From an uncultured Synechococcaceae cyanobacterium (GTDB lineage: Bacteria; Cyanobacteriota; Cyanobacteriia; PCC-6307; Cyanobiaceae), in assembly GCA_902578445.1 (NCBI GenBank), contig CACHDC010000005.1, forward strand, positions 1 through 53,589: a DNA stretch of 53,589 nt, given 5' to 3'. A model generated the notes under the pieces. That model did no database searches. It saw nothing but the letters and a program-made list of their open reading frames with translations, and was not told where the DNA came from. The position numbers and the translations under genes are program-made. Of the stretch, positions 1,004 through 1,298 are shown one piece after another. Every line of letters starts with the position of its first letter. The first letter of the stretch is position 1.

Positions 1004-1298
1004 GTGGCCAATAACAAATCAGCAAAAAAGAGAATACAAATTGCCGAAAGGAATCGTTTAATAAATAAGTCATATAAATCTACTGTTAGGACTTTAACTA
1101 AAAAAACCTTAGAAAATTGCGAAAAATATAAAAAAAAATCCTAATGAGGATAATAAAAATTTAGTAAAAACAAGTCTTAATAAAGCTTTTAGCTTAATCG
1201 ATAAAGCAGTTAAAAAAAATGTTTTACACAAGAATAATGGAGCTAATAGAAAATCAAAAATTAACACTTTTGTAAAAAATACTCTTACCACAAAGTAA
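1004..1298 (+). CDS. rpsT: 30S ribosomal protein S20, reading frame broken by one extra A in an A9 tract
   Basis: S20 binds 16S rRNA early in 30S assembly. The frame opens at GTG 1004 ([18 protein letters not shown]), typical of cyanobacterial S20, but meets TAA at 1142 after 46 codons. Removing one A from the run of nine at 1130-1138 restores a frame that continues [19 protein letters not shown] and [12 protein letters not shown] to TAA 1296-1298, giving 97 residues, the normal family length. The ATG at 993 is in another frame, so GTG is the likely start. S20 is strongly expected in this organism, so I annotate one gene with either a homopolymer sequencing or assembly error or decoding by slippage. 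It sits between divergent hisD and tatD, which starts 17 bases downstream. Confidence 0.9.

Follow-up and report, generated by a model that had tools for sequence, protein, structure and literature searches.

Ribosomal protein S20 is encoded by a single uninterrupted gene in almost every relative of the organism studied here in which it was matched, and its division between two reading frames by a run of nine A residues raises the question of whether rpsT is really broken, is decoded despite the break, or has acquired a spurious base during sequencing. The window (the whole stretch of DNA that was analyzed; 53,589 nucleotides) is the entire contig C5 of G000, a 70-contig assembly of 1,230,699 bases with a completeness of 74.32%. 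The titles of the 80 best named relatives give either Prochlorococcus or Synechococcaceae and, judged from these relatives, the genome is evidently that of a Prochlorococcus. From the number of contigs, the completeness, and the nearest named relatives, which mostly carry plate-style names that we take to denote single-cell genomes, G000 is probably a single-cell assembly. A distance of 1.1 kb separates the A tract from the contig end, and rpsT is flanked by two genes whose names are assumed (Table 1).

Table 1. Features at the left end of the window
Feature	Positions	Strand	Description and source
hisD (presumed name)	2..871	-	truncated by contig start; 871-2 aligns with residues 5-294 of a 428-aa protein from a relative (tblastn)
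rpsT, 5' part	1004..1144	+	46 aa of S20; GTG start; TAA 1142-1144; ORF list and PF01649
A9 tract	1130..1138	+	one base longer than in 107/107 related loci
rpsT, 3' part, other frame	1131..1298	+	PF01649 match; tblastn
tatD-like gene (presumed name)	1316..2110	+	intact; downstream of rpsT; ORF list and relatives

A sequence-only reading had claimed that the tract splits rpsT, and the sequence and the list of open reading frames agree with it. The S20 frame opened at 1004 runs into its TAA, which is followed immediately by TGA, and S20 resumes in another frame, where residues 43-97 of a relative's protein align as far as 1295 and a stop codon (TAA) occupies 1296-1298. The Ribosomal_S20p family (PF01649) matches the two pieces in different frames, at 1007-1138 (39.6 bits, profile 1-44) and at 1116-1277 (40.9 bits, profile 30-83), both above the curated cut-off of 29.5 bits. 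By sequence match the locus therefore belongs to the S20 family, but the single uninterrupted reading frame expected of a member, 97 aa long in an intact homologue, is divided in two. No second copy of rpsT was found in the G000 assembly. An A9 run is itself ordinary in the window, where A/T homopolymers include seven runs of nine and one of ten; the broken frame is the unusual part. The description of rpsT as essential was worded too strongly, given that strains without S20 are viable, but loss of the protein is not harmless. According to PMC7069363, which cites earlier work, 30S subunits of Escherichia coli and Salmonella lacking S20 are defective in initiation and docking.

The tract was compared among relatives. 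A DNA search located the rpsT region in 221 of 266 genomes of the genus, and the loci examined closely comprised the 29 best besides the window and the best 80 of 148 from a named collection (109 loci, some genomes being present in both sets). rpsT is held by 107 of these, in 87 distinct sequences. The stretch at 1127-1144 is 18 bases long in the window, but its counterpart has 17 in all 107 related loci, each of which reads it in one frame. Its longest A run is eight in 50 loci and shorter in the other 57 (seven in 10, six in 33, and five or fewer in 14), and a run of nine occurs in none of the 107. The sequence-only reading had held that relatives with A8 would make the ninth base a sequence error, and this pattern, which the relatives display, counts against slippage. 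Viral contigs were also scanned for the A9 allele together with its flank and gave no matches, a result that is hardly informative because host genes are rare there.

In a protein search of the same 266 genomes, S20 was matched in 206, and the genome table gives the protein in two pieces in only two of them, G000 and G095. The G095 pieces occupy two frames within bases 1-257 of a contig, and the break is a different insertion (A5 to A6), less than 260 bases from the contig start; this insertion was read in locus L067, whose contig equals G095 C5 in length (65,069 bases). No in-gene stop was present among the S20 matches listed from the genus search. Two of the 87 distinct rpsT sequences have a break at another site in the gene: in L067 (AG-418-O03) an A5 run 3' of the tract has gained an A, and in L083 a base has been added at the final codons. 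Two genomes gave partial matches: G207 retains no more than residues 1-62, and the G263 match covers residues 57-95 and starts at base 2 of its contig. The remaining 60 of the 266 genomes gave no S20 match, and a family re-search of six that are 87-93% complete (G086, G145, G130, G119, G064, and G091) was again negative for S20; presumably its absence from these six reflects gaps of draft genomes.

Other genes of the same assembly are also interrupted. Proteins from about half of the genome of G022, a one-contig relative, were compared with the window and with 19 stretches of G000, each 20 kb long and all taken from contig left ends. The comparison covered 234,404 bases and 275 ORFs, of which four (5 rows) were broken across frames, one of them ambiguously: rpsT and the genes for a FAD-binding protein (C10), an 85-aa protein (C8), and a DUF3177 protein (C2). 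The breaks in C10 (L141, near 19425) and C8 (L139, near 5997-6016) each consist of an A5 run lengthened by a single A. Searches of 39 other genomes found the C8 gene open in all 19 with a match and the C10 gene open in all 24 with a match, one of the latter being truncated at a contig end and another being a distant partial homologue from outside the genus. The DUF3177 gene (L134, 3516-4299) shows shifts of +2 and -1 close to the N terminus, upstream of the Pfam domain, and may represent natural N-terminal variation rather than error, leaving three clear cases. The breaks other than rpsT lie 3.7 to 19 kb from a contig left end, within the first 20 kb of the 19 contigs sampled, so proximity to a contig end does not fully account for the breaks. 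In the reverse comparison, none of 270 ORFs was broken in 231,256 bases of G022, a control that is blind to genes broken in the query genome, and G022 proteins revealed no breaks in 98,606 bases of stretches from G011 and G007. G000 therefore contains further frame-breaking indels in conserved genes, as amplification or assembly indels would produce.

Comparable breaks occur in other drafts. The 80 named loci, which from their plate-style names we take to be nearly all single-cell genomes (nine titles say "MAG," and MIT 9314 is an isolate), contain four shifts in three loci over 408,327 covered bases: one in hisD of L054, one in rpsT of L067, and two in rpoB of L097. The L054 gene (AG-424-A03, 785-2069), presumably hisD, has one extra base at a T run. 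In L097 (AG-422-I06, CACGHR010000054.1), rpoB at 3529-4852 is broken at two places about 900 bases apart on a 5.7-kb contig, with a base missing near 3744 and two added near 4638 relative to the window's rpoB. Since rpoB is indispensable, two breaks in one such contig indicate that contigs of this kind carry errors. A published Prochlorococcus single-cell workflow yielded 3.0 indels per 100 kb, a mean over three benchmark cultures that includes indels that do not break a frame (PMC6122165), and this figure translates to approximately 1.6 in the 53.6-kb window. It may be too high, because P. marinus single-cell assemblies tended towards the fewest indels in the WGA-X method paper (PMC5519541). 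The rate observed in G000 (4 broken genes per 234 kb) predicts approximately 0.9, so a single interrupted gene in the window is close to the number expected from errors. In the compared stretches of such drafts, one to two genes per 100 kb look indel-broken, even rpoB, and finding an essential gene split in a single draft is consequently no evidence of recoding.

Collectively, these results make it very probable that the ninth A arose as an indel during amplification or assembly, in an A8 tract close to the contig end, and most likely the base is absent from the cell's chromosome. The window differs from its relatives at this site, G000 carries other frame-breaking indels, and none was found in the more contiguous relatives compared. 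The true state is probably A8 (Lys-Lys-Asn), matching the nearest relatives. The extra A could have been introduced by polymerase slippage during single-cell DNA amplification or library making or, alternatively, by assembly at what we infer to be low depth near the contig end. The break resembles the indels of Prochlorococcus SAG assemblies in that scattered single-base insertions at A/T runs affect conserved genes and were not found in the more contiguous relatives compared; it differs in that the SAG status of G000 is deduced from contig number, completeness, and relatives. Of the two interpretations in the sequence-only reading, a one-base error is favored by the relatives, the other broken G000 genes, and the published rate, while slippage gained no positive support, the extra base recurring at none of the 107 loci. 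As it stands, the split rpsT is likeliest to be a caution rather than a real feature.

A real mutation was considered next to the indel. A recent A8 to A9 change, private to the cell or its close kin and disrupting S20 in a cell that is growing poorly or dying out, is very unlikely. It would have occurred at a site where A8 is the commonest longest run (50/107 loci), and insertions are reported to increase with run length (PMC3812077). Sequence decay was assessed in a set formed from the 109 loci minus 20 duplicates, two loci without rpsT, and L067 (which has gaps), with the window as the 87th row. Over the 48 codons 3' of the tract, the window's mean of nonsynonymous differences was 4.15 against 3.66 (sd 1.31; rank 63/87), slightly above the mean and within the spread of the 87 rows; 5' of the tract, the window was lowest (rank 1/87). 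The absence of decay beyond the tract is what a very recent event would leave, but an undecayed 3' part fits error, very recent mutation, and slippage alike and is not decisive. Against a private mutation, A9 occurs in none of the related loci, and Prochlorococcus populations are large. In such populations, the cost of S20 shortage described in PMC7069363 should make an A9 allele rare among sampled cells, and assembly indels at the observed rate would be commoner than such an allele.

It is very unlikely that a real A9 tract is usefully decoded by RNA polymerase slippage, with some transcripts yielding full S20. The S20 frame would be restored by the loss of one A or the gain of two in RNA; -1 ribosomal frameshifting would not restore it, while +1 frameshifting would. 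Slippage of this kind has precedents: 12-50% of transcripts are reported to be corrected at long poly-A runs in endosymbionts (PMC5009743), and in laboratory drift bypass was detectable after insertion of an A into an 8-A repeat, and at some shorter repeats as well (PMC3812077). However, most of the bypass recorded in PMC3812077 was at runs of at least ten A residues, and two other G000 genes are broken at runs only A6 long, for which slippage would be a less convincing explanation, though a possible one according to the same source. Some proposed endosymbiont cases, including four genes of B. vafer, belong to a single species (PMC3017870), so lack of sharing is not fatal to slippage; other cases in PMC3017870 persist between populations and even species, whereas the shift described here was found in 0/107 loci. 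Of two marks of the endosymbiont cases, the absence of decay both before and after the tract is seen in rpsT, and a frameshift kept in related lineages, which characterizes only some cases, is not. Slippage in Prochlorococcus is not reported in the available portions of PMC5009743 or PMC3812077.

The sequence-only reading drew a parallel with endosymbionts, which matches in part. As in the slippage-rescued poly-A frameshifts of Buchnera and Blochmannia, the genome is small and AT-rich and the gene is otherwise intact around an A tract (PMC5009743, PMC3017870), but the host is evidently a free-living Prochlorococcus, the tract is only nine long, no related locus shares it, and the case is known from DNA alone. 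Were the A9 real and decoded, it would amount to an endosymbiont-style slippage rescue in a free-living bacterium of huge population size. A true A9 rpsT in a free-living streamlined cyanobacterium, with S20 made only from slippage-shortened transcripts as a naturally throttled ribosomal protein, is scarcely to be expected. Slippage at an A run of nine is known from Thermus thermophilus dnaX. There, as would be the case in rpsT, slippage lies inside a coding sequence (PMC5009743), but dnaX has a single ORF spanning the long product, with slippage producing the shorter form, whereas the rpsT frame is broken in the DNA itself. Decay of the 3' part, which an old null would be expected to leave, was not observed, the 3' differences lying inside the spread of relatives.

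Elsewhere in the window, a scan based on runs flagged rpsT (on both strands) together with positions 33853, 41146, and 47433; tblastn with the proteins of three relatives did not flag the latter three. A short putative ORF at 49819-50039 lies in two frames in the window and is open in G011 (74 aa) and G007 (67 aa). A small minus-strand ORF near 13211 seems split in the comparison with G007 alone; G007 and G022 gave short partial matches at 8318-8229 and 35149-35012, respectively. An ATPC RNA motif (Rfam RF01067) was identified on the plus strand at 35079-35169 with a score of 99.2 bits.
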